Positions 10,675 through 58,610 of a stretch of 64,000 bases of DNA are shown one piece after another. The notes beneath the pieces are model-generated. The model ran no database searches. It worked only from the letters and a program-made list of their open reading frames with translations, and was not told the origin of the DNA. The translations under genes were made by a program, and so were the position numbers. This DNA is from a bacterium (lineage in GTDB: Bacteria; Bdellovibrionota_C; UBA2361; RFPC01): NCBI GenBank assembly GCA_030431715.1, contig JAUIIO010000022.1:1-64000 (forward strand), in the 5' to 3' direction. How positions within the stretch are numbered: position 1 is the stretch's first letter; every line of letters begins with the position of its first letter.

Positions 10675-12030
10675 ATGACAGTCACTCTCGGACTCAACAT
10701 ATCTGCCTTACGCGCACAAAACCAGCTGGCGAGATCGTCATCAGAGTTAAGCGATGTCTTTACTCGCCTAAGCTCAGGACAGCGAATTAATTCTGCCAGC
10801 GATGATGCCGCGGGCCTTGCAATATCTGAATCTCTCAACTCTGACTCTAGAGTTTTACAACAAGCAGTACGGAACACAAACGACGGTATTAGTTTACTAA
10901 ACATCGCAGAAAGCGCCCTTAGTGAAGCAAATAATATACTACAACGACTAGAAGAGCTTAGTATACAGGCCGCCAATGGCACCTATAGTGACGAGCAACG
11001 TAATGCGCTTGATGTAGAAGCTCAGGCGCTATCAGAAGAATTTTCTAGAATACTAAATAGTACCGAGTTTAATGGAAAATCATTGTTCTCAACTGAGCCC
11101 GGCGGAACGCATTTACAGATTGGACTAAGATCCTCTGACTCTTTAAATATTGAATTTCGCGACGAAACAGTCATAACCGAGGGAGATGGTACCTATAATG
11201 ACGAAACATTTGATGAATTTGGAAGTTCTCCTGTCTCCGGCCCAGCACTCGCTATCGCAGATTTTGACAGTGACGGACTAGACGACGTCGTTTATGCACA
11301 ACTCGGGAGCTCCGCCGGCTCCACAGACATATATGGGGGAGTGGTAATTGGCTCAGGCGGCTCTTCTTTTGCAGAGATTGATACCTTTAATGTCTCTACA
11401 ACAGCTGGCGTTTCACCGGGGAATCTCTACATTGGAATTACTGACTACGGAAATGATGGCGATCTTGATATCATCTTTCAATCTGACAGCGGAGCACCTG
11501 GATACACTATCGGTGAGAATGATGGTAGTGCCAACTTCACATTCACTTCATATACAGCCGGCACTCTCATCGGTAGCGGAGGAACGACAAGCGCAACTGC
11601 GAACTTTAACAATGATGGAGTAGACGACCTTGCAACTGTCTCCAGTAGTGGCAGTGTCGTCACTCTTACAATGTCTGTCCAAAACACACAGGACAGAGCA
11701 GGCTATGAATCACTCGAGCTAGATACATTTTCTCTACAGACCGCAAGCGAGGCACTAACAGCAAAGGGCATTTTTACTACAGCTCGCGACTCAATCCAGG
11801 AGCTCCTAGGGAATATAGGTGCAACCCAGAGTAGATTAGGATCTATTATTACTCTCAATGAAAGCACCTCTGAGCAATACTTAGCTGCCAGAAGTCGTAT
11901 TATCGACGCAGACATTGCTGCGGAATCTGCGCGCATGATTCGTTTCCAGATACTACAACAAGCAGGCGCCGCCATATTAGGTCAGGCCAACCTTCAACCA
12001 CAACTGGCGCTACAGCTACTAAGAGAGTAA
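10675..12030 (+). CDS. Flagellin with FG-GAP-like central domain
   Basis: Filament subunit of 451 residues. Residues 1-150 match the flagellin N-terminal D0/D1 helices (NISALRAQNQL, RLSSGQRINSASDDAAGLAI, LEELSIQAANGTYSDEQR). The last 100 match the C-terminal D1/D0 (GATQSRLGSIITLNE, RIIDADIAAESARM, ILQQAGAAILGQAN). The exposed middle (about 165-340) carries three calcium-loop motifs typical of FG-GAP/VCBS repeats: DFDSDGLDD near 196, DYGNDGDLD near 258 and NFNNDGVDD near 310. That suggests a small beta-propeller-like or Ca-binding surface domain. The start is supported by AGAGGG just upstream and by the usual flagellin N-terminus. No other flagellar gene is in the window. The D0/D1 assignment is firm; the surface-domain function is inferred. 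Confidence 0.92.
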   Translation: MTVTLGLNISALRAQNQLARSSSELSDVFTRLSSGQRINSASDDAAGLAISESLNSDSRVLQQAVRNTNDGISLLNIAESALSEANNILQRLEELSIQAANGTYSDEQRNALDVEAQALSEEFSRILNSTEFNGKSLFSTEPGGTHLQIGLRSSDSLNIEFRDETVITEGDGTYNDETFDEFGSSPVSGPALAIADFDSDGLDDVVYAQLGSSAGSTDIYGGVVIGSGGSSFAEIDTFNVSTTAGVSPGNLYIGITDYGNDGDLDIIFQSDSGAPGYTIGENDGSANFTFTSYTAGTLIGSGGTTSATANFNNDGVDDLATVSSSGSVVTLTMSVQNTQDRAGYESLELDTFSLQTASEALTAKGIFTTARDSIQELLGNIGATQSRLGSIITLNESTSEQYLAARSRIIDADIAAESARMIRFQILQQAGAAILGQANLQPQLALQLLRE

Positions 12031-17458: not shown

Positions 17459-20400
17459 ATGAAGAAACATGGCCTGCGCACCGCATTAATCTTTCTCATC
17501 CTTGGGCTATCGCTCGGATTCGGACTCAAAGTATTTGAAAATTACCTCGAGCAAGAACTTACCGAAGTTCTGAGAGACGAAGTACTCAAGGCCTGCCCAG
17601 ATTGCTCCTTTGAAGTAGAGGAACTTCACCTTTCACTTGTAAGTCTGAGCGGACGTGCCTATCGGGCTAGAGTGATCAAAGGCGGAAAGGACCAACTCAT
17701 GGTAGAGGAAATGAGGGCCACCTTTGGCCTGAGCCAAATCCTTAAGAGAACCATTGATCTCAAGACTCTAGAATTTCATAACGCTTTCTCTGAGCAGGTG
17801 GATCCACGAAGCACGACGTTTCAAGTGATTGATGGATTCGCCTCCTCGGATCCAAATAAAAAAGAAGAGCCAAAACTCAAAGTAAACCTTCTCAATCTCA
17901 CCGTACATAACGGAAAGTTTAAGCAGAAGCTCGGAAGCGGCACTCTGCTTGGACGAAACGTATCGCTTGATATAACCAGAAAGGATCCGAGCACACTCAT
18001 CATAAAACCGCATGTTGAGCGGATCATCTACAAAGGACGAGGCACCCGAGAATCTTACGATGTAGGTCCCGCGGATGCTGAACTGTCTGTGACTGAACAA
18101 TCTCTGCGGGTTCTAAAACTCCACATTGGCGAAGGAAGATCCTTTGCAAATAGCACAGACTTCGTTTACTTCGACAAAGACGACACGATTCAAGGTAATG
18201 TTCGCTTGCGACTTGAGAAAGGTTTGAGAGTATTTGCTCCGCTCATCAATGAACCAATTACTGGGGAGATAGCACTATCAGGTACGATTCAGAACCCGAC
18301 TGCTAAAATGCAGGTTCGCTCTAAGGAATCAGATCAGGTTACTACAGCATCTCCCATTACTCTCCTCGACAATAATCTAACCGGCAAAATACAGGTACAT
18401 GCGAAGCACGTTACACTTGAAGGGCTACACGCTCTTGAGAGCAACGCAACGGTTTCCATCGGGGGCACATCAGGTTCTCCTACATTCAGCATACACGGAT
18501 CCACCCAAAACGCTCTTTACGAAGATCTCTCCTTTGGCGCCCCCCTTACATACGACCTGAGCATTGGTGAGAAGATAGATTTCACTATTCTCCAATCGGA
18601 ATACGGGATTGAGCGCCTCTCCGCGCAAGGCACGCTCAAAGACAATGGCAAAAATCTCTCCATTGTAAAAACGAATTTCTCCCTCCATAACTTCATCCTC
18701 AGCACAGATGCTACACGCAAAGGAAAAGGTCGGGAATGGGCTAGAGTCTCGGGGAGTGGCACATTTTCTGGTGAGCTTCTTTTTCAAAACATAAAGGGAG
18801 ATGCCACTCTTAGCGTAAGTTCTCCCGACTTCGCTGGCGATGCTGCGGTAACAGGAAGTACAACGCTAAGACAGGGCATTATAACCAGCTCTTTGAGTAA
18901 CACCTCGCAAAGTCTTCTGAGCGATCTCTACCTCGACCTGAGTAGCAAAACAAAGAGCAAATTTAAAGTCGTCCTTAACGATTTCCAACCTGCCGATTAC
19001 GACGATAGGCTGAAATGCTTTACTGCTACCGCCTCTGGCGAATACACTTTTCATATAGATCAATTCACCTCTGGTAATGGAAAGATAGAGCTTGAAAAGC
19101 TTATTGGCGGATGCCCTCCTGAGCAAACTCGCCTCCTTAAAAAGACACAACTCCCAATACGTTCTGGAATACTCACCCTCCCTTCCGTCAAACTTCAGGG
19201 AACGAATACAGAGGTCACAGCACAGGGAAGCGTTTCCTTTGCTGACGGCTATGATTTATCGGTAAATGGCTCCGTATATTTGGCCTCACTCCTGCCACTG
19301 GTGCCAGGCGTTGATGACCTGAGCGGCAAAATTAATACAAGAGTGCTGCTCCAGGGAGATCTGGCATCTCCTCAGCTCGAGGGAACAGCAACACTTGAAA
19401 ATGGACGCGCCTCTATTGAATCAGCAGGCATAAATGCCGAAAAAATAGCCGCTCGAGTCGATCTTAAGAACGGCCAAATCGTTGTTCAGGAAAGCAGTGG
19501 AGAAATCAACGGCGGAACTTTCCAACTCACCGGGAACATCAATCCGACGCAAGAAAAACTCTCAACTCTAAGCATGGTGTTTCAAGATGTCGTTTACGAT
19601 CCACTTCGAGATGCTGTGCTTACGCTTTCAGGCGATCTCAACTTTGAGTTCAGAAGCCAGCAAGAGCCACGAATTTACGGAGAGGTAGAGGTAGACGGGG
19701 CGCAGATCGAAAAGAACTTCGATCTCTTAACCTTCATTGAGGATATCCCCTCTCTCATTCTCGGCTCCAGCCAAAAAAACAATCCTGACACCCAGCGTAC
19801 AGATAGAAAATCTAGGCCAATACTTCTCGATATCTCTGTATTTGCTAGTAGAAACGTTTTTATTCTAACCAATCTTCTGAGCGCTGAACTTAAGGGGGAC
19901 TTTCGAATTACAGGTAGTGTGCGACGACCTATCATTAATGGCACTCTCTCAACGCTGGGCGGTTGGTTTGGTCTTAAAGAAAGGAGATTTGATATCACCT
20001 CAGGGCAAATTTCATTTTCTCCCGTCATCCCACAGCCCAATCTTGAGCTCCTCGGAGAAACATATGTGAGATCGAGAGCAGGTGATAACGTCCTCATTCT
20101 CCTTGAGGCTACAGGTCCAATAACCACACCTACTATCACTCTGAGTTCTGACAGAGGCCTGAGCCAGAGAGAACTCTTAACCCTCCTTAGCTCAGGAGCA
20201 GATCTCACGACAGGAAGCGTACATTCGAGAGCAGAAGATCTTGAGCTGGAAGAACGACTCAGGGAAGGAGGAAGCTTCCTAGAAAGGTCTATGCGATTCC
20301 TACGTACGATTACTCGTATAGATCTACTTACCCTAGAACCTCAATTCAACACAAGACGGGGTCAACTTGAGCCTACTCTCATCGCTGAGAAGAAAATCAT

Positions 20401-23008
20401 GGAGTACCTAAGCCTCATTGGTCAAAGTTTCATTAGTAGTGGCGGTGACCAGTCCGTAGTAACACTCCAATACGATCTCACTGAAAAGCTACAACTCGCC
20501 GGGAGTGTTAGCACGATTACTTCTGAAAACACCAACGCCGTAGGAATCGATCTGAAATATACCGTAATTGCACGTGAAGATCCTTATATAGAGTACACCA
20601 TACTCGGGAATAATTTTGTGAGTAGAAGAGAGCTGCTAAAAAATCTCAAACTTACCTCGGCCACCCAGCTTCGCGAGTCAGAAGTAGATAAAGTACAGAA
20701 ATCGATACGAGCCTTTTACAAGCGAAATGGCTTTTTTCAGGCTGAAAACAAAACTACCTGCCTTGAGGTAGATAACAATTGTCGACACCTTCAGATTACC
20801 ATTAATGAAGGGCCACGCTCCAAGATAAAGAAAATCAATTTTAGCGGTGACCCTTTACCGAAGGAATTTGAAAAGAAACTTATTGAACTTTTTGATGAGC
20901 GCTATGCTACCACGCTCTCACTACAAGATGGAAATTCCGAGCTCACCCGGTGGCTGCGTTCAGAAGGATACATCGGCGCACGAGTGCAAATGAACTACGT
21001 AGAGCGTAGTGATGAGGATAAAGACCTATCAGTAGAAGTCACTGCGGGACAGCCGGTATCCTTTGAGTTTGTTGGAAATACACTATTTAGCGCAGAGGAA
21101 TTTCTTAAAACGATAAACCTCTTTCAAAGAAAACAGCCTTTTGGGAACAACACGATCCGCATTCTTGTCGAGAATATGGAGCGAATGTACAGGGAAGCCG
21201 GGTATCTTTTTGTTACTATTGACTATTCCTCGCTTGAAGACTTTATCAATGAGCGTATCTACTACCGAATCAATATCGACGAGCAACATCAAGTTAAAAT
21301 ACGAGATGTCGTATTCCACTCAGAACGATATACAGAGGAAGAACTCAGAAACCTTCTCGCAGAAAGCGCTTACTCAAGCTACATAGAACAAGTCTTTACG
21401 CCAAGCGCCATAGTAGAGGAAGTACTCGACCGGAATGCTAGACTCCTCAGAAACCTTCTAAGACACGAGGGATACAATAACGCCACGGTTCAGGCGTCTT
21501 TTACACTACAACAAGGGGATAAAGAAGCAATCATTGAGTACACTATATTAGAGCAAAACCTTCAGGCAGCACGACATATAATTGTACATAACTTTCCCCC
21601 CGATCTTCCCCTTCCTGAAATTCCGAGTGCTCCCCTCTCAGCGCCTAAGATCAATAGCTACATAAATAAGCTCATGAACCTACTTACTGAGAACGGATAT
21701 ACTGGTCAATCTCTCTGGACAGAAATCGAAGGTGATTTCGATACGTTTCATATTAATCTCGACACACCACAACAGGTGATGGTCCAAGATATATTTATCG
21801 TAGGTAATAACTCTATCCCTGAGGAGGTTATTCGCTCTCACCTCGCCCTACAAGAAGGCGATCCCTTACGGACACAGTCAATACAAAGCTCTACTCGTGC
21901 CCTTTTAAAGCTTGGACTCTTCTCCAGAGTTGAAGTTGAAAAACTTAGCTCAAGCCAAAACCAAAACTCTCTCCTCGTTCGCGTGGTAGAGCGCCCTCTA
22001 ACAACTCTTGAGGTTGGTACAGGGATTAATTCAGAATTTGGCTATCATATCTTTGGTGAAACTATCGATAAGTCACTCTTTAAGGATGGACGTAGACTTT
22101 CCTTACGTATGGACGCTTACTACGAAGAAACGGAGGCTCAGATCTCAAGAGGAATAGCCAGTCTTGGATACTTCGATCCCGAATTTACCTCACAGTATTC
22201 TTTTGCACAGGATTTACGATATCAAAAGCTAGAGCTCACTACATTTGAATACGATCTCGACAGGTACTCACTTTCAACATCTCTGAATCAATCCTCTGAT
22301 GAAGCCTTCTCCCACAACTTTATCCATACGATCCTGAGAGATGATTTGAGCAATGTGAGCCCTGGGGCGGTAATCGGTTCCTATGACACCGGCATTGTAG
22401 ACCTGAGCTTCCTCACCTTCGCGCTTTCTTACGACAAGCGAGATCAGGTACTCAATCCAAGAAGAGGTTACTTCGCAAGACTCGAGTCTCTCATAGCTTC
22501 AGATCTCATAGGCTCAGAAGCAAATTATACTTCTCTTCAAGGGCAGTTTTCATACGTCGTACCATTTACCATTGAATCAAGAGCATTTGCTTTCGCACAT
22601 AATCTACGCTCGGGCATAAGCTGGGCGCTCGATGACACAGACCAAATACCAATAACGCAGCGTTACTATCTTGGTGGTCGTACTACTATCCGCGGCTTCC
22701 GAGAAAACTCGCTCGGGCCACGAGGAGACGATGGGGCAGTTATCGGTGGTGACATACTGATGCAAAACAATACTGAATTTCGGTACTACCCAAGCGACGT
22801 ACTCTCCGTACACCTCTTTTTCGATGCCGGGAATGTCTTCTTACAAGATCAGTCCGTAGAGCTTGATGAACTTCGTACCAGCGCCGGACTTGGGCTACGC
22901 TACCTCTCGCCAATCGGACCTATCGGCTTTGATCTCGGAAAGCCACTTGAGGAACGACAAGGCGAACCATCAATCCGCTTCCACTTTCAAGTCGGAACTA
23001 CCTTTTAG
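17459..23008 (+). CDS. TamB-Omp85 (TamA/BamA-type) fusion protein
   Basis: One uninterrupted 1849-residue protein joins the two halves of a translocation and assembly module. It starts with an N-terminal membrane anchor (RTALIFLILGLSLGFGLKVF), followed by about 1000 residues of beta-rich AsmA/TamB-like sequence ending in the TamB family C-terminal domain (about 780-1000; STLGGWFGLKERRFDITSGQ, LSQRELLTLLSSGADL). About six POTRA-like repeats follow (about 1040-1500; IEYTILGNNFVSRREL, FEFVGNTLFSAEEFL, VQDIFIVGNNSIPEEVI). It ends as an Omp85 barrel with the lid-loop motif TTIRGFREN (about 1740) and terminal SPIGPIGFDLGKPL and FQVGTTF. TamB normally bridges the membranes and TamA is a separate barrel. 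Here the inner-membrane anchor, periplasmic conduit and barrel are one chain. It probably moves lipids or proteins to the outer membrane. It follows lipA by 11 bases, and its ribosome-binding site is weak. Confidence 0.93.
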   Translation: MKKHGLRTALIFLILGLSLGFGLKVFENYLEQELTEVLRDEVLKACPDCSFEVEELHLSLVSLSGRAYRARVIKGGKDQLMVEEMRATFGLSQILKRTIDLKTLEFHNAFSEQVDPRSTTFQVIDGFASSDPNKKEEPKLKVNLLNLTVHNGKFKQKLGSGTLLGRNVSLDITRKDPSTLIIKPHVERIIYKGRGTRESYDVGPADAELSVTEQSLRVLKLHIGEGRSFANSTDFVYFDKDDTIQGNVRLRLEKGLRVFAPLINEPITGEIALSGTIQNPTAKMQVRSKESDQVTTASPITLLDNNLTGKIQVHAKHVTLEGLHALESNATVSIGGTSGSPTFSIHGSTQNALYEDLSFGAPLTYDLSIGEKIDFTILQSEYGIERLSAQGTLKDNGKNLSIVKTNFSLHNFILSTDATRKGKGREWARVSGSGTFSGELLFQNIKGDATLSVSSPDFAGDAAVTGSTTLRQGIITSSLSNTSQSLLSDLYLDLSSKTKSKFKVVLNDFQPADYDDRLKCFTATASGEYTFHIDQFTSGNGKIELEKLIGGCPPEQTRLLKKTQLPIRSGILTLPSVKLQGTNTEVTAQGSVSFADGYDLSVNGSVYLASLLPLVPGVDDLSGKINTRVLLQGDLASPQLEGTATLENGRASIESAGINAEKIAARVDLKNGQIVVQESSGEINGGTFQLTGNINPTQEKLSTLSMVFQDVVYDPLRDAVLTLSGDLNFEFRSQQEPRIYGEVEVDGAQIEKNFDLLTFIEDIPSLILGSSQKNNPDTQRTDRKSRPILLDISVFASRNVFILTNLLSAELKGDFRITGSVRRPIINGTLSTLGGWFGLKERRFDITSGQISFSPVIPQPNLELLGETYVRSRAGDNVLILLEATGPITTPTITLSSDRGLSQRELLTLLSSGADLTTGSVHSRAEDLELEERLREGGSFLERSMRFLRTITRIDLLTLEPQFNTRRGQLEPTLIAEKKIMEYLSLIGQSFISSGGDQSVVTLQYDLTEKLQLAGSVSTITSENTNAVGIDLKYTVIAREDPYIEYTILGNNFVSRRELLKNLKLTSATQLRESEVDKVQKSIRAFYKRNGFFQAENKTTCLEVDNNCRHLQITINEGPRSKIKKINFSGDPLPKEFEKKLIELFDERYATTLSLQDGNSELTRWLRSEGYIGARVQMNYVERSDEDKDLSVEVTAGQPVSFEFVGNTLFSAEEFLKTINLFQRKQPFGNNTIRILVENMERMYREAGYLFVTIDYSSLEDFINERIYYRINIDEQHQVKIRDVVFHSERYTEEELRNLLAESAYSSYIEQVFTPSAIVEEVLDRNARLLRNLLRHEGYNNATVQASFTLQQGDKEAIIEYTILEQNLQAARHIIVHNFPPDLPLPEIPSAPLSAPKINSYINKLMNLLTENGYTGQSLWTEIEGDFDTFHINLDTPQQVMVQDIFIVGNNSIPEEVIRSHLALQEGDPLRTQSIQSSTRALLKLGLFSRVEVEKLSSSQNQNSLLVRVVERPLTTLEVGTGINSEFGYHIFGETIDKSLFKDGRRLSLRMDAYYEETEAQISRGIASLGYFDPEFTSQYSFAQDLRYQKLELTTFEYDLDRYSLSTSLNQSSDEAFSHNFIHTILRDDLSNVSPGAVIGSYDTGIVDLSFLTFALSYDKRDQVLNPRRGYFARLESLIASDLIGSEANYTSLQGQFSYVVPFTIESRAFAFAHNLRSGISWALDDTDQIPITQRYYLGGRTTIRGFRENSLGPRGDDGAVIGGDILMQNNTEFRYYPSDVLSVHLFFDAGNVFLQDQSVELDELRTSAGLGLRYLSPIGPIGFDLGKPLEERQGEPSIRFHFQVGTTF

Positions 23009-23306: not shown

Positions 23307-24998
23307 CTACCCTTCAGACTCCTCTGCCTGCTGCAACTCAAGAAGTTTGGCGTACTTCAAAAAGGTGGAGAATGCCTCAGCAAAGGCAACTTGCATCCCC
23401 GCAATCCCTTCAATAAATCCAAGACGGAAAAAATAGAACTTTATAAATCGCATAGGAGGATGAAATACGAGCTTCTTCATGTTTGCACGGACCCCTCGCT
23501 CATAGAGAGCATTGGCAGAGAGTGTTGAGAATCGATTTAAGGTCTGAATAAGATCGCGGTACGAGTCATAGGTGTAATGGTATAGATATCCTTTGAGTTT
23601 CCTCGTAGCCCCATCTACAAAAGCCTTCTCATGGGGGTTCACACCGCCCCAAGTAGCACTCTCTCTCCAGAGGAAGCGAAGACGATATTCTGGATGCCAG
23701 CCACCCCTGTCCCACCAACGATCAAGAAAGTAGACAAGGCGACAGAGATAGTATCCCTTCACAACGGGTGTGGAGGCGTAGCTGTCCCTGAGTATCTTCA
23801 TGATTTCAGCCTTTAACTCCGAGGAGAGCTCCTCATCAGCATCAAGATTGAGTACCCATGGATATTTACACTGAGAGAGTGCAAATTGCTTTTGCTCGCG
23901 ATGTCCGGGCCATTCTCTTTCAATAACACGTACACGAGAAAAAGAACGGCATATTTCAAGTGTTCGGTCAGTAGAACCACTATCCACGACAAGAATTTCG
24001 TCACACCAAGAGATCGAATCAATACAACGAGCAATCTTCTCTTCTTCATTTTTACAGATAATAAATGCTGACACACGCTCCCTATCTCCGGGCTTCTGAG
24101 CTTCACACTGATCGAGTGCGAGCTCCACATCTCTGGCAGAAACCTGACTTGCCGGATAAAGGGTTCGAAGAGAAGACTGAAAAGGCGCCCAGCGGTCAGG
24201 GTGCATTGAGCGCTGTACTGGATAGAGCGCTACGCCAGAAACCCGCGCGACTGAGGCTAGATGCGTGATCCCCGTAGAAGGCCCAACGTAAAACCTCGCG
24301 TTCTTAAGAATTCCGAGCACAACACTAAGACTCGTAACAAGACGGGTCCTAACAGTAGGATAATCTTCGGAAAGCTTATCGTACATTTCGCGCATTTTTT
24401 CTTCAGCCGGACCGAGCAAAATCAAGACCCGCTGCCCCCTCTCACTGAGAGAACGTGCGAGCTCCTGCCAACGCTCATGTGGCCATGCTTCAGCCGAAAC
24501 ACTTGCTCCCGGCATTAAGATTGTTGCGCCTTGAACATCCTCAACCTCAGGAATATCCTTGAAATCATCGATCGTAAGGGCTGAGCGCAAACGGGTATGT
24601 CTCAGCCTATCATCAAGAAGTGAGAGCAGCTGCCAGTTATACTCGGCCTCATTGAGAAAAGCTCTCGAACGCCTGACAGTTCGAAATCTATTGTAATAAA
24701 AGCTATGCCACCGTGCGAGATTGCCTATCCTCAAGGGAATGCCGGCCTTGGCATACATTCTTGCGACATGGCTCTTCGCCATAAGGTCAACTGAAGCATC
24801 AAACTTATAGGGCTTAAGATCCTCACCTATTGTCACCACACCATCAAGAAAGGCGATATTATCAACGAGCCCTCTCGTGTATTCAGCAACGTGAATATAA
24901 ACCTGACATTCAGGGATAAGGGCCTTTAGCTGCTTAACTCCGTGCAATGCCAGAACAACATCACCCACTTTGTCAGGTCTGGAAATGAGTACCTTCAT
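23307..24998 (-). CDS. GT9-GT2 fusion glycosyltransferase (LPS core type)
   Basis: A 563-residue protein made of two glycosyltransferases. Residues 1-300 resemble family GT9 heptosyltransferases (MKVLISRPDKVGDVVLALHGV, ILMPGASVSAEAWPHERW, FYVGPSTGITHLASV). Residues 306-545 resemble family GT2 WaaE/KdtX-type enzymes: SAFIICKNEEEKIARCIDS, EILVVDSGSTDRT, a DxD-type LNLDADEEL, and HPEYRLRFL. Both probably act at the cytoplasmic face on lipopolysaccharide core, adding a heptose-like sugar and a second hexose. In other bacteria these are usually separate genes of a core locus. The gene stands apart from any LPS cluster visible here and is convergent with the TamB-Omp85 gene. Confidence 0.88.
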   Translation of the reverse strand: MKVLISRPDKVGDVVLALHGVKQLKALIPECQVYIHVAEYTRGLVDNIAFLDGVVTIGEDLKPYKFDASVDLMAKSHVARMYAKAGIPLRIGNLARWHSFYYNRFRTVRRSRAFLNEAEYNWQLLSLLDDRLRHTRLRSALTIDDFKDIPEVEDVQGATILMPGASVSAEAWPHERWQELARSLSERGQRVLILLGPAEEKMREMYDKLSEDYPTVRTRLVTSLSVVLGILKNARFYVGPSTGITHLASVARVSGVALYPVQRSMHPDRWAPFQSSLRTLYPASQVSARDVELALDQCEAQKPGDRERVSAFIICKNEEEKIARCIDSISWCDEILVVDSGSTDRTLEICRSFSRVRVIEREWPGHREQKQFALSQCKYPWVLNLDADEELSSELKAEIMKILRDSYASTPVVKGYYLCRLVYFLDRWWDRGGWHPEYRLRFLWRESATWGGVNPHEKAFVDGATRKLKGYLYHYTYDSYRDLIQTLNRFSTLSANALYERGVRANMKKLVFHPPMRFIKFYFFRLGFIEGIAGMQVAFAEAFSTFLKYAKLLELQQAEESEG

Positions 24999-46915: not shown

Positions 46916-48871
46916 ATGACAAATGAACAAGTGATGTGGCAACCCCCAGAGCAAAACCTCACTACTACCTCGATCGCTCAATTTTGCGAACGGCTAAAGA
47001 GCTCGGTAGCTCAAACTTTTACATCATATAACGAACTCTACTCATGGTCCGTGGCAGAACCACAAAAATTTTGGTCTGAATTCTGGGAATTCGCTGAAAT
47101 CATTGGATCTAAAGGAAACCGAGTGTTTAAAAAGCAAGAGCAGTTCAGTGATTGCCGCTGGTTTCCTGACGCCTCCTTAAATTTCGCGGAGAATCTCTTA
47201 CGCACCTCAAGCGAAGACGAAGCGATAGTTTTCTGGGGAGAAGACAAGATCCGAAAGCGCCTGTCTTATGCTGAGCTACAAAAGGAAGTGGCAAAAATGT
47301 CACGCTGCCTAAAAGACCTCGGAGTTAATAAAGGTGATCGTGTGGCAGCCTACCTGCCTAACCTTCCTGAAACGATCATCTGCATGCTTGCAACGACATC
47401 TCTTGGCGCGCTCTGGAGCTCCTGCTCTCCAGACTTTGGTGTAAGCGGTGTTGTTGATCGCTTCGGACAGATCGAACCCGTTATACTCCTCACCGCTGAC
47501 GGATACTGGCATAAGGGGCGATCTCTCGACACTTTAGAAAAAGCAAAAGAGATTCGTGCAAAGATTCCTTCGATTCAGCACACAATCGTTGTCCCCTATG
47601 TCAACGCGTCGCCTACTCACAACATCTCTGGGAACGTACATCTGTATAATGAGATTAAGGAAAAGTTTAGCGATAAACCAATAGACTTTGAGCAGTTTCC
47701 TTTTAACCATCCGCTCTACATTATGTTCAGCTCTGGTACGACTGGAAAGCCAAAATGCATTGTACACGGTGCAGGTGGCACACTTATCGAACACCTTAAA
47801 GAGCTCAAACTCCATACGAACGTTTGTAGAGACGATCGATTTTTTTATCAGACAACATGTGGTTGGATGATGTGGAACTGGCTCGTAAGTGGGCTGGCCT
47901 GCGGTGCCACACTTATGCTTTATGATGGTGCGCCATTTCATAACGACGGGAAGATACTTTTAGACTTTGCGGAACAAGAAAAATTTACGGTCTTTGGAAC
48001 AAACGCAAAATATATTTCAGCACTTGAGAATCAAGGGCTCACCCCCTCACAGTCTCACGACCTCTCATCGCTTCGTGCGATTCTCTCAACGGGATCGCCT
48101 CTTATTCCCGAGAACTATGATTATGTTTATAAGAGCATAAAAGAAGAGGTCCTTTTATCTTCCATATCAGGAGGGACGGATATCATCGGCTGTTTTGTGC
48201 TCGGTTGCCCCACCCTCCCTGTATATCGAGGAGAGATTCAATGCCGCTCTCTTGGATACGATGTTCAAATATATAACGAAAAGGGAGAACCTGTAACAAA
48301 TGAAATGGGCGAGCTCGTCTGTACCGCTCCCTTTCCTTCACAACCCGTAATGTTTTGGAACGATCCTGATGGCAGCAAGATGCACAAAGCCTACTTCTCA
48401 CACTTCGATAACGTCTGGCGACACGGAGACTGGGCGATGCTTACTGAAAGAGGAACGCTCATCATCTCTGGGAGATCTGATACCGTCCTTAATCCAGGTG
48501 GTGTTCGAATTGGAACAGCTGAAATTTATCGCCAAGTTGAGACCATCTCAGAGATTGAAGAAGCTATTGTAGTGGGTCAAAAATGGGAAGACGATGTACG
48601 GGTCATTCTCTTTGTGAAACTGCAATCCGGATCTCTTCTGACAGACGATCTCTGCAAAGCCATCTCAGCAAAGATACGCAAAGAAGCAAGTCCCTTTCAC
48701 GTTCCTAAAAAAATTCTTGCTGTGAAAGATATTCCAAGGACGAGAAGTGGCAAAATTTCAGAAGTAGCCGTTCGAAAAACTATCAACGGGGAAGAAGTCA
48801 CAAATACAGAGGCTCTAGCAAATCCCGAATCGCTGCAAGAATATAGGGACATCGCAAAGACAATAAGTTAA
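46916..48871 (+). CDS. aacS: Acetoacetyl-CoA synthetase
   Basis: ATP-dependent ligase that activates acetoacetate to acetoacetyl-CoA (ANL superfamily), about 651 residues. The start at 46916 follows GAGGAG with six-base spacing; an upstream frame extension is not needed. The adenylate-binding motif is MFSSGTTGKPKCIVHGAGG. The motif SISGGTDIIGCFVLG is characteristic of acetoacetyl-CoA synthetases and separates them from acetyl-CoA synthetases. The C-terminal catalytic lysine is in PRTRSGKISEVAVRK. The N-terminal FWSEFWEFAEIIGSKG block also fits. It diverges from the act operon and is convergent with the sigma-like gene, sharing four bases at the stops. It may link ketone-body or polyhydroxybutyrate use to respiration. 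Confidence 0.95.
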   Translation: MTNEQVMWQPPEQNLTTTSIAQFCERLKSSVAQTFTSYNELYSWSVAEPQKFWSEFWEFAEIIGSKGNRVFKKQEQFSDCRWFPDASLNFAENLLRTSSEDEAIVFWGEDKIRKRLSYAELQKEVAKMSRCLKDLGVNKGDRVAAYLPNLPETIICMLATTSLGALWSSCSPDFGVSGVVDRFGQIEPVILLTADGYWHKGRSLDTLEKAKEIRAKIPSIQHTIVVPYVNASPTHNISGNVHLYNEIKEKFSDKPIDFEQFPFNHPLYIMFSSGTTGKPKCIVHGAGGTLIEHLKELKLHTNVCRDDRFFYQTTCGWMMWNWLVSGLACGATLMLYDGAPFHNDGKILLDFAEQEKFTVFGTNAKYISALENQGLTPSQSHDLSSLRAILSTGSPLIPENYDYVYKSIKEEVLLSSISGGTDIIGCFVLGCPTLPVYRGEIQCRSLGYDVQIYNEKGEPVTNEMGELVCTAPFPSQPVMFWNDPDGSKMHKAYFSHFDNVWRHGDWAMLTERGTLIISGRSDTVLNPGGVRIGTAEIYRQVETISEIEEAIVVGQKWEDDVRVILFVKLQSGSLLTDDLCKAISAKIRKEASPFHVPKKILAVKDIPRTRSGKISEVAVRKTINGEEVTNTEALANPESLQEYRDIAKTIS

Positions 48872-51309
48872 TCGCTATCTGTACCCTGCTCAACAACCGG
48901 TAATTCTTCACCCTTTATAACGGCGATATTATATCTGCGAGCATCTTCACTTTGAACAACCGCAATGTCGCACGCCATAGACTTAAGCCCTTTCACTTGA
49001 GGGTTATAGCGATCAAGAAATGGGCTGGTCCACCCTCTCTTGACCAACTCTGCCCCAACTTGAGCAGGAGACGAAAGCTCACCGGAGGTGTGTCGCCCAA
49101 TGTAATCAGTACTTTCAAGCAATGTTCTGAGAACCCGAAAATCCGTTTTTTTGTATGCACCAATATGAGGGATATTTCTTTTTACCCAATTTTTTGCGTT
49201 CGCATATGCCATAGCCTCGCCAACAACCTCACGACGGAAGTAAAAAGAAAGTTTTTTTGCTCGTAGTGGCTTTGCTCCTTCAGGCATCACCTGAGAGAGC
49301 GGCCCCCCTTCTCTAGCCGCAAAGGCCGCAAGCTTTTCCATCTCCCACGGCTTACATCCCACATGCTCTGCTAGAAGCTTCACTGACGGACCGTCTTTTT
49401 GAAACGAATCGAGATCAGGATAATTGGCCTGTATAAAAGCATCTATATTTTTATTTTTCTGCTCAAGAGAGACATCTCTAACGTATGCCTCCTTTAAAGA
49501 TCTTTCTGAGCCATGCTTCTTTTGCGGCGTGACATCCCCTTTTAGCCAACCACGTTTCACAAGTTCCCGCCGTATTGCAGAGACTTCCCGCGGTACCCCT
49601 AAGAGAGTAGAAAGCATTCGGTCCTTTCCCACTGATTCGAGATTAGGAAATCTCTGGCGGAAAAACGCTAGGAATATCTCCCTTCTCTCTGGCGAAAGCC
49701 TCTCAAGGTCAAACCCTCGCTTGCCAAGCTTGTGCCTAAAAAGAGGAACTCGCCCTCTGCTCGTATCAAAGAAATTTCTCCAGAATTCAGTATCCCCGGC
49801 GTACTTCTCAATCATCTTTGTACCATCACAACCACCGGATGACGCCTCTAACTCTCCAATGAAAAAATCAAATAAGTATGACTTATCTTGGAACCAGCTT
49901 TTACTTTCAAACTCAAACCGATCTCGCATTCTCGTAAGTTCATATCTTACAGCTTCAAGACAACGATCGAGCATTTGGTTAACTGCTTGCTTCGAAGTCC
50001 CATAACTCCTTGCAATCTTATTTTGCGTCTCGCCAAAAATATAATGGCGCTCCACCATTTCGAACTTCCGCCGGGATAAAATTTTAGCCGCTACGAGTAA
50101 ACAATCTTCAAGACTATAACCATCAACAATCAACCGATTTTGAGCTCTGCGATCAGTACTGAGCTGAGATTCTGTTTCACTGGTAAGGTACGTATCTTTC
50201 TGACGATCAATGAGCAATCTTAACTTTGGGATTTCTGTTTTTTTAACACCGAGAAGCTTCGCTAACTCTCTATCATCAAGCTCATAGCCCTCCTCTCTTC
50301 GCACCTTCTCAATTATCCGAAGCGCATCTTTCGCCTGACGATGTGCAGCGCTTGCTACCGTACCACCTAAGTACTGCTTTGAAAGATCTCGTTGTAGGTT
50401 GGTAGTAATGCTGACACGTGCATAGTGCGCAAATGAAACACCAAGCTCTGGATCAAAATTATCAATAATCTTGTCAAGGTACACAGCACTGAGCTGAAAC
50501 ACATCATCTGTTTCAAAGCCCGGATAATCAGTCTTTAAAGCTATTAACCTCAGATACCGCAGGTTATGAAATACAATTTCTTTCTTGAGTGCTTTGGCAG
50601 CTGCGAGAATGCTTCCAAGTTCATCCTTCCTTTCTTTGGGTGCTTGCTCAGCAAGATATTGCAGAAACTCTTTTTTAAACGGCAGGATATTAAAAAAGCG
50701 ACCAAGCCTGAGATACACCGCATCATGTCGCTCTTTTACCTCAAGAGGAACCTCTCCCCGCGCCTCCCACGCTACGACCTCAGCGCGCATAGATTCAATC
50801 CTTGCTCCGTACATGTTGAGGCTCTGGGAAAGTCTTCCCTTAAATCTCACCTGCTCTTTAGGTGCAAGCTTAAAGACCTGCCTTAATTCAGCTGTACGCT
50901 TACAGGCAATCTTACTGAGCGAAAAACAAGCGGAGATAACCTCCGGTTTGCTAAAGAGATTTTGCCTGAGGAGTGCATATAACTGGTTGTAGGTTTCAAG
51001 TTTTTCCTTAGCCTGCTCTTTGCTATACGCTGGCAACTTATCCTTGAGGCAGGCGGGAGACTGAGGCATCTTAAAATGCTCAAGTTCAATCTCATCAAAT
51101 GAAGTGGGCTTATGTTCTCTCTCGGGCCGGGGTGAAGACTCGACTTCAAGACCATCACCACGAGCAGGATAAGCCTCAGAAACGTTTTGGCTATCAGAGG
51201 ATATGTCCTCAATAGTTACCCCATCAGCTGCGTATTCGATGAAAGCCAGATCTTGGCCACCGTCAGCAAAATACTCTGCTAGCTGTTCTTGGGTAATAAG
51301 TGATGACAT
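48868..51309 (-). CDS. Large sigma-70-like protein with C-terminal repeats
   Basis: An 813-residue protein (from the ATG at 51309; an upstream in-frame TTG at 51339 is less likely). Its centre matches sigma-70 factors. Region 2 lies at about 250-310 (NLRYLRLIALKTDYPGFE, SAVYLDKIIDNFDPELGVSF and HYARVSITTNLQRDL). Region 3 lies at about 325-360 (IIEKVRREEGYELDDRELAK). Region 4 lies at about 400-460, with a helix-turn-helix in YGTSKQAVNQMLDRCLEAVR. The N-terminal 240 residues are acidic then helical. The last 300 residues contain about three related units built around FP-x-L-x-S, LLG and LVKRGW, of unknown function. Expected to recruit RNA polymerase to a special promoter set, or to be a sigma-derived regulator. 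It follows nadB; no anti-sigma gene is adjacent. Confidence 0.78.
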   Translation of the reverse strand: MSSLITQEQLAEYFADGGQDLAFIEYAADGVTIEDISSDSQNVSEAYPARGDGLEVESSPRPEREHKPTSFDEIELEHFKMPQSPACLKDKLPAYSKEQAKEKLETYNQLYALLRQNLFSKPEVISACFSLSKIACKRTAELRQVFKLAPKEQVRFKGRLSQSLNMYGARIESMRAEVVAWEARGEVPLEVKERHDAVYLRLGRFFNILPFKKEFLQYLAEQAPKERKDELGSILAAAKALKKEIVFHNLRYLRLIALKTDYPGFETDDVFQLSAVYLDKIIDNFDPELGVSFAHYARVSITTNLQRDLSKQYLGGTVASAAHRQAKDALRIIEKVRREEGYELDDRELAKLLGVKKTEIPKLRLLIDRQKDTYLTSETESQLSTDRRAQNRLIVDGYSLEDCLLVAAKILSRRKFEMVERHYIFGETQNKIARSYGTSKQAVNQMLDRCLEAVRYELTRMRDRFEFESKSWFQDKSYLFDFFIGELEASSGGCDGTKMIEKYAGDTEFWRNFFDTSRGRVPLFRHKLGKRGFDLERLSPERREIFLAFFRQRFPNLESVGKDRMLSTLLGVPREVSAIRRELVKRGWLKGDVTPQKKHGSERSLKEAYVRDVSLEQKNKNIDAFIQANYPDLDSFQKDGPSVKLLAEHVGCKPWEMEKLAAFAAREGGPLSQVMPEGAKPLRAKKLSFYFRREVVGEAMAYANAKNWVKRNIPHIGAYKKTDFRVLRTLLESTDYIGRHTSGELSSPAQVGAELVKRGWTSPFLDRYNPQVKGLKSMACDIAVVQSEDARRYNIAVIKGEELPVVEQGTDSD

Positions 51310-51487
51310 GTACTGCTTTACTTCGATACCACCCGCCAATGAAACTGTTTCGTGTTGACATTGACGATTCTTTACAGTGAAAACTGTAGACTCCTCATGC
51401 AGAGCTTAGAGTTAAAATTATCTTGATTACCTTATCTATTCAAGGAAGTAGCATAATTTAGGTATATTAGAGTTTGAATAGTTGATC

Positions 51488-54515: not shown

Positions 54516-57500
54516 TCAGGCAGCTGTTGCTACTTTGATCTGACCATTCTCAGCATAGAGTCGAATATTGCGCTTATGCTCACGTGGATTAAAGTTTACA
54601 ATATCATACTGAGCCTCTACAGCCTCTCGAATGGATTCACCTGCGAGCTGATCAAGCGCGCGACTGAGGTGTCTCAGGTCAAAGAAATAATCGTCGTTAA
54701 ACGATCCCTTACCATTATGACCGAAGCCAGTAACGGTTTTTCTGTTACCGATCCCTTTCAGAGCACCCTCGTTATATCTACAAACTTCCTTTGAGCTTTC
54801 ATAAAGAAGGTCAGAGGCTAAAGGATCTATATCTACCACTCGAAGGCCAGCACCAATAACCCCGTATCGATCACGGAGCCCATTCACCGTAAGATCGGTG
54901 GCTTTCATAAACTCATCCTTCTCAATGGCATGCATAACAATTGGATCAAACCTTCGAACAAGCTCTGGACGAGGATTTCCTGAGCGATCAACAAACGCTT
55001 CCGAGAGCACGTCTCTCACTTCTCGCATACTCATACCTCTGTGAAGCTTATCAGCAGCAGCATTTGAGGCGCCTGCTATAATAGCTCCTGGACGTTTTAT
55101 CGTCTTCCCTCCTCCAGATGTCAGAGTGGCTGTATCAAAGAAGTTCATCAGCGCCGTATAGACATCTGGATGCATCTTTTCGATCTCGTCGATAAATATA
55201 AATGACAAAATATTCTCATCTAAAAAATTAAAGAATCTTCCTTCATCACTGCCTTTATAACCAGGAGGGGAGCCAATCAGCTTCGAATACGATTGCGGTT
55301 CTGAAAATTCTGCTCCTTCGATACCAAAGAATGGGATACCCAATGCAAGCGAAAGTTTATACATATACTCGGTCTTACCAACACCTGTAGGTCCAGGCAG
55401 AAGAAGCGTGAGCGGACGTCTCTGATCACGCAGGCGTAAAAGATGTGAAATGATAGCATTCCCTATTTGCTCAATCGCATCTTTCTGGCCGAGAATCTGA
55501 GTCGGTGCATATTCATTAAAACGTTTAATAATACCTTTCTTTTCCCGAATCTGTGCTACATCTGGAATACGGAAAATAGGCGACATCGCCTCAATCACAT
55601 CTGCATCTTCAATGGTGCTGTATCCCCTAAGTCTCGCGCTTTCAGCTGCAGCATGAAGAAGAGCCAAGTTAAGGTGAAGCGGATCGTCACCGCTCGAGCG
55701 GAACCCCTCAACTTGTCTTGAACAGAATCCAAACAGGTCCTTACTAACAGGACTTTCAAGCTCAAGTTTTGTCTGTATCGCTTCGCTATCTGCGAAAAGC
55801 TTTTCAGGAACATCAAAGTCAAGAAAAGGTTGTACCTGAATATTTGGCACTCCGGGCAACGGCTCTTTTAGATTTGTTATGATTACTTTCACACGATGCT
55901 TTCGGAGCTCATTTACAAACAAGCTATATCCACGAAGATCTTTAACATTGTCCGCATCTAAAATAAGTATAACGTTCTCATCGTAGACGGTGAGCTCCAT
56001 CAAGAAATCATTAATTCTGCCCATATCGGGAGTACTCTTGAGGTCTATTCCATAAAATCTTTGAACGAGCTTTTCAAAGGTTTTTTCTAACGCGCTTGGA
56101 TTTTTCACACTTACTATAGAGTGATGAAGAAGGCCTTCATGAGCCTCTCCCTCAATGACTCGAGAACAAAGGTTCTGAAGGAGCCGCCGCGGTGGCCGTG
56201 TATAGTTCCCCCAAAACTCTTCTGACTTTTCTACATCTTCCTTAAATTTCTCTCCCTCTATCTCTTTTGTAAGATCCGGGTAATAAGACGTCCCATCTAC
56301 AATCCCTACAATCCCGTCGCCTTCGGCAAGATGCTGTTCAAGAAGACGCACCTCAAGGCTCATGCCTACCGTATCAAGATGCATGTCTTTATAGTCAGAG
56401 AGCGTTGCTCGGTCTTCAAAAATTGCAGGAAGCTCACCTAGCTTATGTGGTCGATAGCTTTCGAGGTAGCGGTCGTAAAGATCGAATAAAGACTTGGGGA
56501 TATTATGCTTTGCTATTAGTACTCGCTGTGATTCAGCAGGGAAGTGCCCGGCAGAGAGACGACTATAAGTCTCTAACAGAGCTCGTAATGCTCTCTCCTC
56601 TACAGGTTTGGTCGTATGGTGAAAGGTATAGTCAAGGCAATCCGCAAGCGTTGCTTTTTTCTTTCCTGCCCACTGCATCGCAGCATATTTGAGCTCAGAC
56701 GGAGTTCTCACCGTAGATACTGGAAAAGCCTTCACAAGATTCTTTAGTATCTCACCGGTCTCTGGATCACTGGACTGAGGCAACAGATCTGAAACAACAA
56801 ATTTCGCACTAAGATTTACATCTCTATCTGGAAGTATAAAGTGCCGCAACTGACTGGACCGTATGCCTCTTCCGTACGTATCCTTTCTCGCGTTTTGAAG
56901 GACTTTCATGGCGTTCTGATCTAAAAGAAAAGAGGCATCTTTAAGAGTTCTTACCGACGAAAGGTCCGCCGCTGCGTTTGAATCCCAGAGCTTATCAAGA
57001 CAGGTGAGAAGAGGAGTAGCATTGCTGTTACGTCCAGCAACAAAGACAATCTGCTTTCCAGCTTCCTGTGCCTCACGTACTTTGTTGCGAAACGCAGTAA
57101 GGCTCTGCTGCTTTGCAGATGAAAGAGCAAGGTGTTTTATTACTGGTTTTACATATCTCTTTGTATCCTCATACATTTCAACATCGGATCGTAGCTCATA
57201 CACCTTATCTTCAATTGCAGATAATCGTTTCTCCCACAGCACATGTTCCTTCTTGGTGTCATTTTTCGGGCCAGCTTCTCTAATTTCTCTTCGTCTCTTC
57301 TTGGCTGTCTCAAGAGAACTCACCTTCTGTCTGTAGTTATACTCCTCCTTCGCAGAAAGCTGCTGCCTCTTTATAAGCGGGCGCGACTGATTACTCTCCT
57401 CCTCAAGACGGGAAAGCTTCTCTCTCATGACATCGATCACTTCTTGCCGCTGCAACTTCTCGCTCAAATAAACATCCTTCGCTTCTGCATAAGCACTCTT

Positions 57501-58610
57501 TGCACCCTTGCCTGTAAATTGTCGTAAGGATGGTCGCTTCTCATTAAAAGCTGAAAGCTCCGCGCGCTTTTCTTCTATCTCGCCGGAGAGCTTATCGATC
57601 TTCCGCTTTAAGTCCTCTCGCTTTTCAGCTTTAAACAGAGGAGAAGACTTTTCACCAACCATAATGTACTCAACGATCTCCATAGCCAACTGGGTACGAA
57701 GTTTTGGTGAAACACTTTTTAGCACATTAATATCAGATGACATTCGAAAATCTGGAAGCTCAATACAGACGCAATCTCTCTTTACTCCATTCGCATTGCT
57801 ATGTCCTAAATCCACACTTCTATTTAAGCATGTTGTCACTAACTTGAGCGTTTCAGGCGTAAAATCGAAACACTCCTTCTTCCAAGTAGGCACACCTTCT
57901 GAATTTTCTTTCAGTACCATTCGCTCAGATTGAGCATACATCAGCCGTTTACTGGGCCCGTGAACGGCCTCCATCAGATTGGCCATCTGCTGAAAAAATG
58001 GTGCTGCACAGAGCAGATGTCGCCCGGCCATGCCCCGATTCTCGCAACCACTCGCTAAAAACCTTCCGAAATAATTCATCCGAGTAATTGGAAGAGGGAA
58101 ACGCTCTGTAATCTCTCTGAGATCAAAGGTATCAAGATGCTGCTGCTGGAGAATCATTGACTGTAGTGTGCGAAGTACCGGTGTCTCTACTTCAACATTC
58201 CTTACAACTTTCTGAAATTGCCTCTTCGTGTTGGCATCAAGAAATTGTGTCACCTTCTCAGGCGAGTTTATAAAGACTTCTATAAGTTGAGCTGAGGTAT
58301 TACGTATCTGCTCAGCGTGACCATTAACCTCTGCCGCACTTTGCGGTAGGTACTTCTTAAACTTTCCAGGAACATATCCCATCGTTATGAGCATGTTTCG
58401 AAGATCAGGCGCCTCCAAAAAAGACTCACCTGACTCGTCAGGAGCCATAGCTGCTTGCCAGAGTCCAGTGGCGCGGACAGCGGCGAGCTGTTGCTCAGAG
58501 ATATTCTTCAGAATTCCGTCACGAGCTTCGGTATACTCACTCTTTCCGCCTGCCGAAACGAGCAATCTTGAATGGCTCTTTGGAAGTTCTACTTTAGACT
58601 GATCCGGCAT
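54516..58610 (-). CDS. Giant AAA+ protein, ClpB-like C-terminal ATPase
   Basis: A 1364-residue protein. The C-terminal third is an intact AAA+ module of the ClpA/ClpB second-domain type: Walker A GPTGVGKTEY (about 1073-1082), pore-loop-like GSPPGYKGSDEG, Walker B FIFIDEIEKMHPD (about 1137-1149), sensor-1 AGASNAA and arginine finger RPELVRRFD (about 1214-1222). Upstream, residues about 830-1030 look like a first ATPase module with a Walker B-like strand (ENVILILDADNV) but no Walker A. A long coiled coil spans about 325-485. The N-terminal 300 residues are helical and unrecognised. It lies among aro genes but has no evident metabolic role. A disaggregase- or remodelling-type activity is inferred. 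No signal peptide is present. Confidence 0.8.
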   Translation of the reverse strand: MPDQSKVELPKSHSRLLVSAGGKSEYTEARDGILKNISEQQLAAVRATGLWQAAMAPDESGESFLEAPDLRNMLITMGYVPGKFKKYLPQSAAEVNGHAEQIRNTSAQLIEVFINSPEKVTQFLDANTKRQFQKVVRNVEVETPVLRTLQSMILQQQHLDTFDLREITERFPLPITRMNYFGRFLASGCENRGMAGRHLLCAAPFFQQMANLMEAVHGPSKRLMYAQSERMVLKENSEGVPTWKKECFDFTPETLKLVTTCLNRSVDLGHSNANGVKRDCVCIELPDFRMSSDINVLKSVSPKLRTQLAMEIVEYIMVGEKSSPLFKAEKREDLKRKIDKLSGEIEEKRAELSAFNEKRPSLRQFTGKGAKSAYAEAKDVYLSEKLQRQEVIDVMREKLSRLEEESNQSRPLIKRQQLSAKEEYNYRQKVSSLETAKKRRREIREAGPKNDTKKEHVLWEKRLSAIEDKVYELRSDVEMYEDTKRYVKPVIKHLALSSAKQQSLTAFRNKVREAQEAGKQIVFVAGRNSNATPLLTCLDKLWDSNAAADLSSVRTLKDASFLLDQNAMKVLQNARKDTYGRGIRSSQLRHFILPDRDVNLSAKFVVSDLLPQSSDPETGEILKNLVKAFPVSTVRTPSELKYAAMQWAGKKKATLADCLDYTFHHTTKPVEERALRALLETYSRLSAGHFPAESQRVLIAKHNIPKSLFDLYDRYLESYRPHKLGELPAIFEDRATLSDYKDMHLDTVGMSLEVRLLEQHLAEGDGIVGIVDGTSYYPDLTKEIEGEKFKEDVEKSEEFWGNYTRPPRRLLQNLCSRVIEGEAHEGLLHHSIVSVKNPSALEKTFEKLVQRFYGIDLKSTPDMGRINDFLMELTVYDENVILILDADNVKDLRGYSLFVNELRKHRVKVIITNLKEPLPGVPNIQVQPFLDFDVPEKLFADSEAIQTKLELESPVSKDLFGFCSRQVEGFRSSGDDPLHLNLALLHAAAESARLRGYSTIEDADVIEAMSPIFRIPDVAQIREKKGIIKRFNEYAPTQILGQKDAIEQIGNAIISHLLRLRDQRRPLTLLLPGPTGVGKTEYMYKLSLALGIPFFGIEGAEFSEPQSYSKLIGSPPGYKGSDEGRFFNFLDENILSFIFIDEIEKMHPDVYTALMNFFDTATLTSGGGKTIKRPGAIIAGASNAAADKLHRGMSMREVRDVLSEAFVDRSGNPRPELVRRFDPIVMHAIEKDEFMKATDLTVNGLRDRYGVIGAGLRVVDIDPLASDLLYESSKEVCRYNEGALKGIGNRKTVTGFGHNGKGSFNDDYFFDLRHLSRALDQLAGESIREAVEAQYDIVNFNPREHKRNIRLYAENGQIKVATAA

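Follow-up and report, generated by a model that had tools for sequence, protein, structure and literature searches.

A divergent sigma-70-like protein with a C-terminal repeat module found in a small family of one bacterial order

Introduction

The SnoaL-like tail of ECF41 sigma factors has been proposed to switch its sigma factor on and off. At least 26 ECF sigma groups carry N- or C-terminal extensions, some of them tails built from TPR or WD40-like repeats, and the C-terminal TPR tail of ECF42 has been proposed to act as a protein-binding switch (PMC8999054). Given these extended groups, a premise of the first-pass annotation of the locus described here, that sigma-70 proteins end soon after region 4, was too strong.

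We have analyzed a 64,000-nucleotide stretch of bacterial DNA (the window), taken from contig 31 of an assembly that totals 4.0 Mb in 56 contigs, and focus on one large sigma-70-like protein encoded there, P0001. We show that this protein is a member of a small, fast-evolving sigma-70 family with a new C-terminal repeat module. The profiles closest to its core are those of the group 3 sigma factors (FliA/WhiG and SigB/F/G), with which it shares regions 2, 3 and 4 in the same order. Unlike them, P0001 has a 240-residue N-terminal extension and a repeated tail of ~300 residues; it also falls far below the group 3 family cut-offs, and its host has a separate, normal FliA. ECF42 and ECF57 resemble P0001 in joining a sigma factor to a repeated C-terminal tail, but their repeats are TPR or WD40-like (PMC8999054), whereas the P0001 repeat is neither by Pfam. 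ECF (group 4) factors moreover lack region 3, whereas P0001 has a region 3-like stretch that aligns to RpoD and SigB/F/G. The built-in C-terminal regulatory domain of ECF41, ECF56 and SigJ can be counted as a further likeness, but that domain is a single SnoaL-like one, whereas P0001 has repeats and no SnoaL-like Pfam match. MzaA of the MZA defence system and the PHROG 351 phage sigma factors are, like P0001, large proteins with an internal sigma core; they differ in context, and no common tail was detected.

The gene and its genomic setting

The open reading frame of 813 residues is genuine; its strand, left unstated in the first-pass annotation, is the minus strand (Table 1); an in-frame TTG at 51339 would give an alternative product of 823 residues. 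The gene is downstream of nadB, aroC and the gene for a 1364-residue AAA+ protein, all on the same strand, and its stop codon overlaps that of a convergent acetoacetyl-CoA synthetase gene (window 48868-48871). Base composition by codon position is similar to that of the neighbouring genes. No conserved gene neighbourhood was found around the family members.

Table 1. Positions of the P0001 gene and its parts in the window
Feature	Window positions	Strand	Evidence or remark
Sigma-70-like protein with C-terminal repeats (P0001)	48868..51309	-	813 aa from ATG 51309
N-terminal extension, residues 1-238	50596..51309	-	no family match; relatives without counterpart
Sigma core, residues 239-458	49936..50595	-	TIGR02980 E=2.6e-13; PDB sigma factors
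Sigma region 2, ~residues 241-312	50374..50589	-	alignment to RpoD and sigmaF; Pfam Sigma70_r2 at 248-311, E=0.13
Sigma region 3-like stretch, ~residues 318-372	50194..50358	-	RpoD alignment; full-length TIGR02980 match
Sigma region 4, residues 404-460	49930..50100	-	Pfam Sigma70_r4_2 E=0.001
C-terminal unit 1, long form, residues 498-596	49522..49818	-	profile of four G001 units, 29.8 bits
C-terminal unit 2, short form, residues 608-678	49276..49488	-	leave-one-out, 23.1 bits
C-terminal unit 3, short form, residues 688-767	49009..49248	-	leave-one-out, 19.9 bits
Insertion GRHTSGELSSPAQ, residues 738-750, between the HTH-like helices of unit 3	49060..49098	-	unit alignments

The 1364-residue protein (window 54516-58610, minus strand) carries a ClpA/B-type AAA_2 domain at its C-terminal end, preceded by ~1000 residues without a Pfam match, and has relatives at the 39-41% level only in four genomes of another family. 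Since these close relatives sit in genomes without the sigma repeats, we rejected a functional link between it and P0001.

The window also encodes other proteins of unusual layout. In one 1849-residue open reading frame (17459-23008, plus strand), TamB (residues 684-1035) and TamA share a polypeptide, TamA being represented by four POTRA repeats and the Omp85 barrel at residues 1566-1849. The variable central part of a flagellin (10675-12030, plus strand) contains an insertion of FG-GAP-like repeats, and a family 9 glycosyltransferase of the heptosyltransferase type is fused with a family 2 glycosyltransferase in one chain (23307-24998, minus strand).

A genuine but very divergent sigma core

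The first-pass annotation had placed regions 2, 3 and 4 of sigma-70 in order in the middle of the protein, behind a 240-residue N-terminal extension, and both statements are borne out (Table 1). The match to NCBIfam TIGR02980 (SigB/F/G) covers profile positions 2-226 of 227, and solved sigma factors align over the core in the order region 2, 3, 4 (1l0o_C, E=2.1e-5; RpoD chains, E ~1e-3). The core is also matched by PHROG 351, a large phage sigma family (E=6e-14), by PRK08215 SigG (E=1e-12) and by the general sigma-70/ECF model TIGR02937 (E=2.1e-10). With the individual Sigma70 models of Pfam, region 4 is matched at E=0.001, region 2 is at best marginal and region 3 has no separate match. Region 4 scores 74.7 bits with a profile made from the family, P0001 included.

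None of these sigma matches reaches a curated cut-off. The Pfam scores are 12.5 bits against a gathering score of 24 for region 2 and 18-19 against 24-26 for region 4, the gathering score being a curation threshold and not a defining biological feature; for the FliA/SigF-type group 3 subfamily the score is 50.2 bits against a cut-off of 234. P0001 ranks 16th among the sigma matches of a whole-genome scan (40.6 bits, cut-off 42.9), and the host also has an ordinary RpoD, an ordinary FliA and over a dozen further sigma factors. Because the profile matches are significant, yet none is at a curated cut-off and Pfam region 2 is so weak, the core is, as judged from sequence, genuine but very divergent.

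The C-terminal repeats

The ~300 residues after the sigma core consist of three related units, as the first-pass annotation had proposed, and they are detected by profiles that contain no P0001 sequence. Three such profiles gave 45.7, 33.1 and 88.6 bits for residues 460-813, and the best of 2000 shuffled sequences reached 6.8, 13.0 and 5.9 bits, respectively; in a leave-one-out comparison the whole protein scored 92.6 bits, and no shuffle exceeded 5.8. Scores this far above shuffled sequence place the repeats well outside chance. Indeed, a profile that holds only the five units of the G005 protein finds the tail, and one that holds only the four G001 units finds the first unit. Self-alignment of P0001, by itself, is only moderately convincing: unit 1 aligns with unit 2 (p=0.001) and with unit 3 (p=0.0005), but there is no significant alignment between units 2 and 3 (p=0.12). 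In the phylum scan described below unit 1 was recovered at 49522-49827 with E=1.9e-34, by a profile that includes unit 1 itself.

Two details of the tail had been noted earlier. The interruption of the last unit by GRHTSGELSSPAQ is real, and several relatives have insertions at the same place. Residues ~498-545, by contrast, are not the decayed fourth copy that had been suspected; they make up the N-terminal half of unit 1, which is of the long form. The module occurs in two forms, a long one of ~100-120 residues and a short one of ~70-75 residues, and the first unit is long in each of the sigma-bearing members. In the front half of this first unit there is a Y-x-x-x-P-[DE]-F-F-like motif, which is most evident in G001 and P0001. 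The short form starts with S-[YF]-[YF]-F-x-x-x-V-V-G-x-x-x-A-x-x-N and ends with L-A-x-x-L-G ... L-x-x-x-L-V-x-x-G-x-L-S-x-x-x-P.

Members and distribution of the repeat family

Seven proteins make up the family; they come from five genomes, all in the same order (Table 2). Homologues that share both the sigma core and the repeats do exist: four of the six relatives of P0001, which come from four genomes, have a sigma part and repeats (one of them ends at a contig end), and the remaining two have repeats only. With leave-one-out profiles the seven members score 53-213 bits against no more than 10.6 for shuffles, and by this sequence measure the repeat family is real in all of them.

Table 2. 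Proteins of the repeat family
Protein	Genome	Layout
P0001	window's genome	sigma + three units
L021	G002	sigma + one long unit + four short units
L003	G002	region 4 + units; cut off by contig end
L019	G002	repeats only
L044	G001	sigma + four long units, ~120 residues each
L043	G017	diverged sigma part + units
L004	G005	repeats only

The sigma parts of the relatives vary in quality. L021 matches FliA/WhiG over nearly the whole length (E=2.8e-17) and L044 gives E=1.7e-12 and exceeds the Pfam gathering score for region 4; region 2 is visibly poorer in L044 and L043. Profile searches detected no sigma part in L004 or L019, and a candidate region 4 remnant in L004 was rejected because it scored no better than shuffles.

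The distribution is narrow. A search of 57 genomes with whole P0001 gave matches in G002 and G005, wholly or mainly in the tail. Among the 45 genomes of a phylum-wide scan the repeats occur only in the five family genomes and are absent from the other 40; weak matches in G030 and G035 were inspected and rejected. The repeat was not found in 331 genomes of two other phyla, nor in the IMG/VR, phage and plasmid records searched. A scan of a public genome collection found no relatives with P0001 as query and only three, already known, with five close units.

The unit gave no convincing match in Pfam, NCBIfam, PHROGs or the PDB, and none of 21 units matched a Pfam repeat family of the TPR or WD40 kind. 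DUF2087 was rejected as the identity of unit 1 (E=0.018, in one unit only), as was the idea that the units are copies of sigma region 4 (hhalign profile comparison, probability 10%). A literature search found no relevant report of fused or repeated sigma tails like these. The unit family thus appears to be undescribed in the libraries searched.

Divergence within the family is high. Members are only ~18-25% identical to P0001 over the alignment, whereas the NadB encoded next to P0001 is 66-67% identical to that of G001 or G005. This difference points either to old paralogues lost from most genomes or to very fast evolution. A tree of sigma cores joins L021, L043 and L044 to a tailless sigma factor of 250 residues from G004 (support 95/88), and P0001 stands apart on a very long branch (3.5 changes per column) with unstable placement; the search profile used for this tree had a few wrong letters at the start of its L021 row. 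With branches of this length, the tree fits one fusion or several. The G004 protein (L050, 1483-2235), whose core groups with those three repeat-bearing sigma factors, is possibly the form without a tail.

Predicted structure of the unit

A model of the unit predicted with 14 aligned units (mean pLDDT 81) has four helices, at positions 6-9, 11-25, 36-42 and 48-58. The last two lie on the conserved L-A-x-x-L-G ... L-x-x-x-L-V-x-x-G motif and, together with the intervening turn, resemble a helix-turn-helix in the model, with weak structural support. Foldseek found no match with E<1; a second structural comparison, by VIA, gave no Z above 3, its weak matches being to the helix-turn-helix proteins GerE (Z 3.0; 47 residues, 2.6 A) and VqmA (Z 2.4). 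A profile of the units gave marginal matches on the HTH-like stretch to an iron-dependent repressor (E=0.012) and, less strongly, to a MarR-type regulator (E=0.28). Most of these few weak matches are to helix-turn-helix proteins aligned on the conserved motif. The weak structural resemblance to LuxR/GerE-type domains is accompanied by differences: the units have no sequence match to these domains, a longer turn with insertions and a tandem arrangement.

In several units the turn between the HTH-like helices contains insertions of 10-20 residues, which a functional helix-turn-helix would not usually have. Four of the seven proteins have a basic repeat region (pI 9.2-10.1; net charge +13 in P0001); in L021 and L003 it is neutral or acidic. 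A full-length model of P0001 with four aligned sequences (pLDDT 47) is too poor for the main claims.

Possible functions of the tail

The sigma core of P0001 probably still binds the RNA polymerase core and recognizes a promoter, as its profile matches suggest, although Pfam region 2 at only E=0.13 leaves polymerase binding less than assured. Region 4 of sigma factors sits on the -35 element, so a tail that follows it would be well placed to reach upstream DNA, the C-terminal domains of polymerase alpha or an activator. We tentatively favor the first of these, with P0001 as an alternative sigma factor that gains further DNA contacts upstream of -35 through its tail, while rating this reading somewhat short of an even chance. 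DNA contact is favored by the HTH-like motif, the tandem array of variable length, the basic character of most arrays and the retention of the array without a sigma part in two relatives. In such a mechanism, regions 2, 3 and 4 would hold the polymerase core and find the promoter, and the array of three HTH-like units would continue from region 4 at -35 and contact the DNA upstream. P0001 would thus read a longer, composite promoter and do alone the work that is normally shared between a sigma factor and an activator. Array length might be adjustable, as relatives with 3 to 6 units suggest, and the repeat-only relatives, which indicate that the array can stand alone, would be plain DNA-binding regulators. 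The weak fold matches, the turn insertions and the non-basic arrays of L021 and L003 count against DNA contact, and the modeled unit points to a helix-turn-helix without amounting to proof. Of the earlier suggestion that the tail provides extra DNA- or protein-binding helices, repeated HTH-like units are the best-supported part, and the fold assignment (GerE, Z 3.0) is weak.

The main rival, which by analogy with described systems we regard as plausible but on balance unlikely, is that the tail is a regulatory platform that binds a protein or ligand and thereby switches the sigma factor on or off. Studied C-terminal extensions of sigma factors mainly act in this way (PMC8999054), and a tail predicted to be wholly helical, with repeats, is in keeping with it; insertions in the turn and the neutral or acidic character of the L021 and L003 arrays would also suit protein binding better than DNA binding. 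The conserved unit motif, however, reads like a helix-turn-helix and not like TPR or WD40, with no Pfam repeat match, and since the array persists in two relatives with no sigma part detected, control of its own sigma core cannot be the array's only role. These same sigma-less members, together with the very long branches of the sigma-core tree, of which that of P0001 is an example, make it a serious option, though a distinctly less probable one, that the core has lost transcription initiation and that the proteins are regulators that bind DNA or polymerase and use a degenerate sigma core as their framework. The sigma matches below curated cut-offs and the poorer region 2 of L044 and L043 would fit such decay, but the P0001 match spans the whole of region 2 to region 4 in order, and L021 still aligns with FliA/WhiG nearly end to end. 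Finally, the PHROG 351 match, a weak match to MzaA and a divergence far above that of the housekeeping neighbour NadB could suggest a selfish or defence gene, such as a phage-derived giant sigma factor or an MZA-like component. We disfavor this explanation as very improbable: the phage and MzaA matches are limited to the sigma core, the repeats are absent from the viral and plasmid records searched, the neighbours are housekeeping genes (nadB, aroC and acetoacetyl-CoA synthetase), and no MZA partner genes were recognized beside P0001.

To return to DNA contact by the tail, a broader and more doubtful form of this reading would have the family carry a modular DNA-reading array of variable length after region 4, in which added or changed units extend promoter specificity upstream and which has also been released as stand-alone regulators. 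Known sigma tails are mostly regulatory switches on short ECF factors, and a larger sigma factor (regions 2-4) with a tandem array of a new module would differ from them in layout. Should the units read DNA, a single polypeptide would combine the work of a sigma factor with that of an activator and would provide a possibly programmable means of setting promoter specificity.
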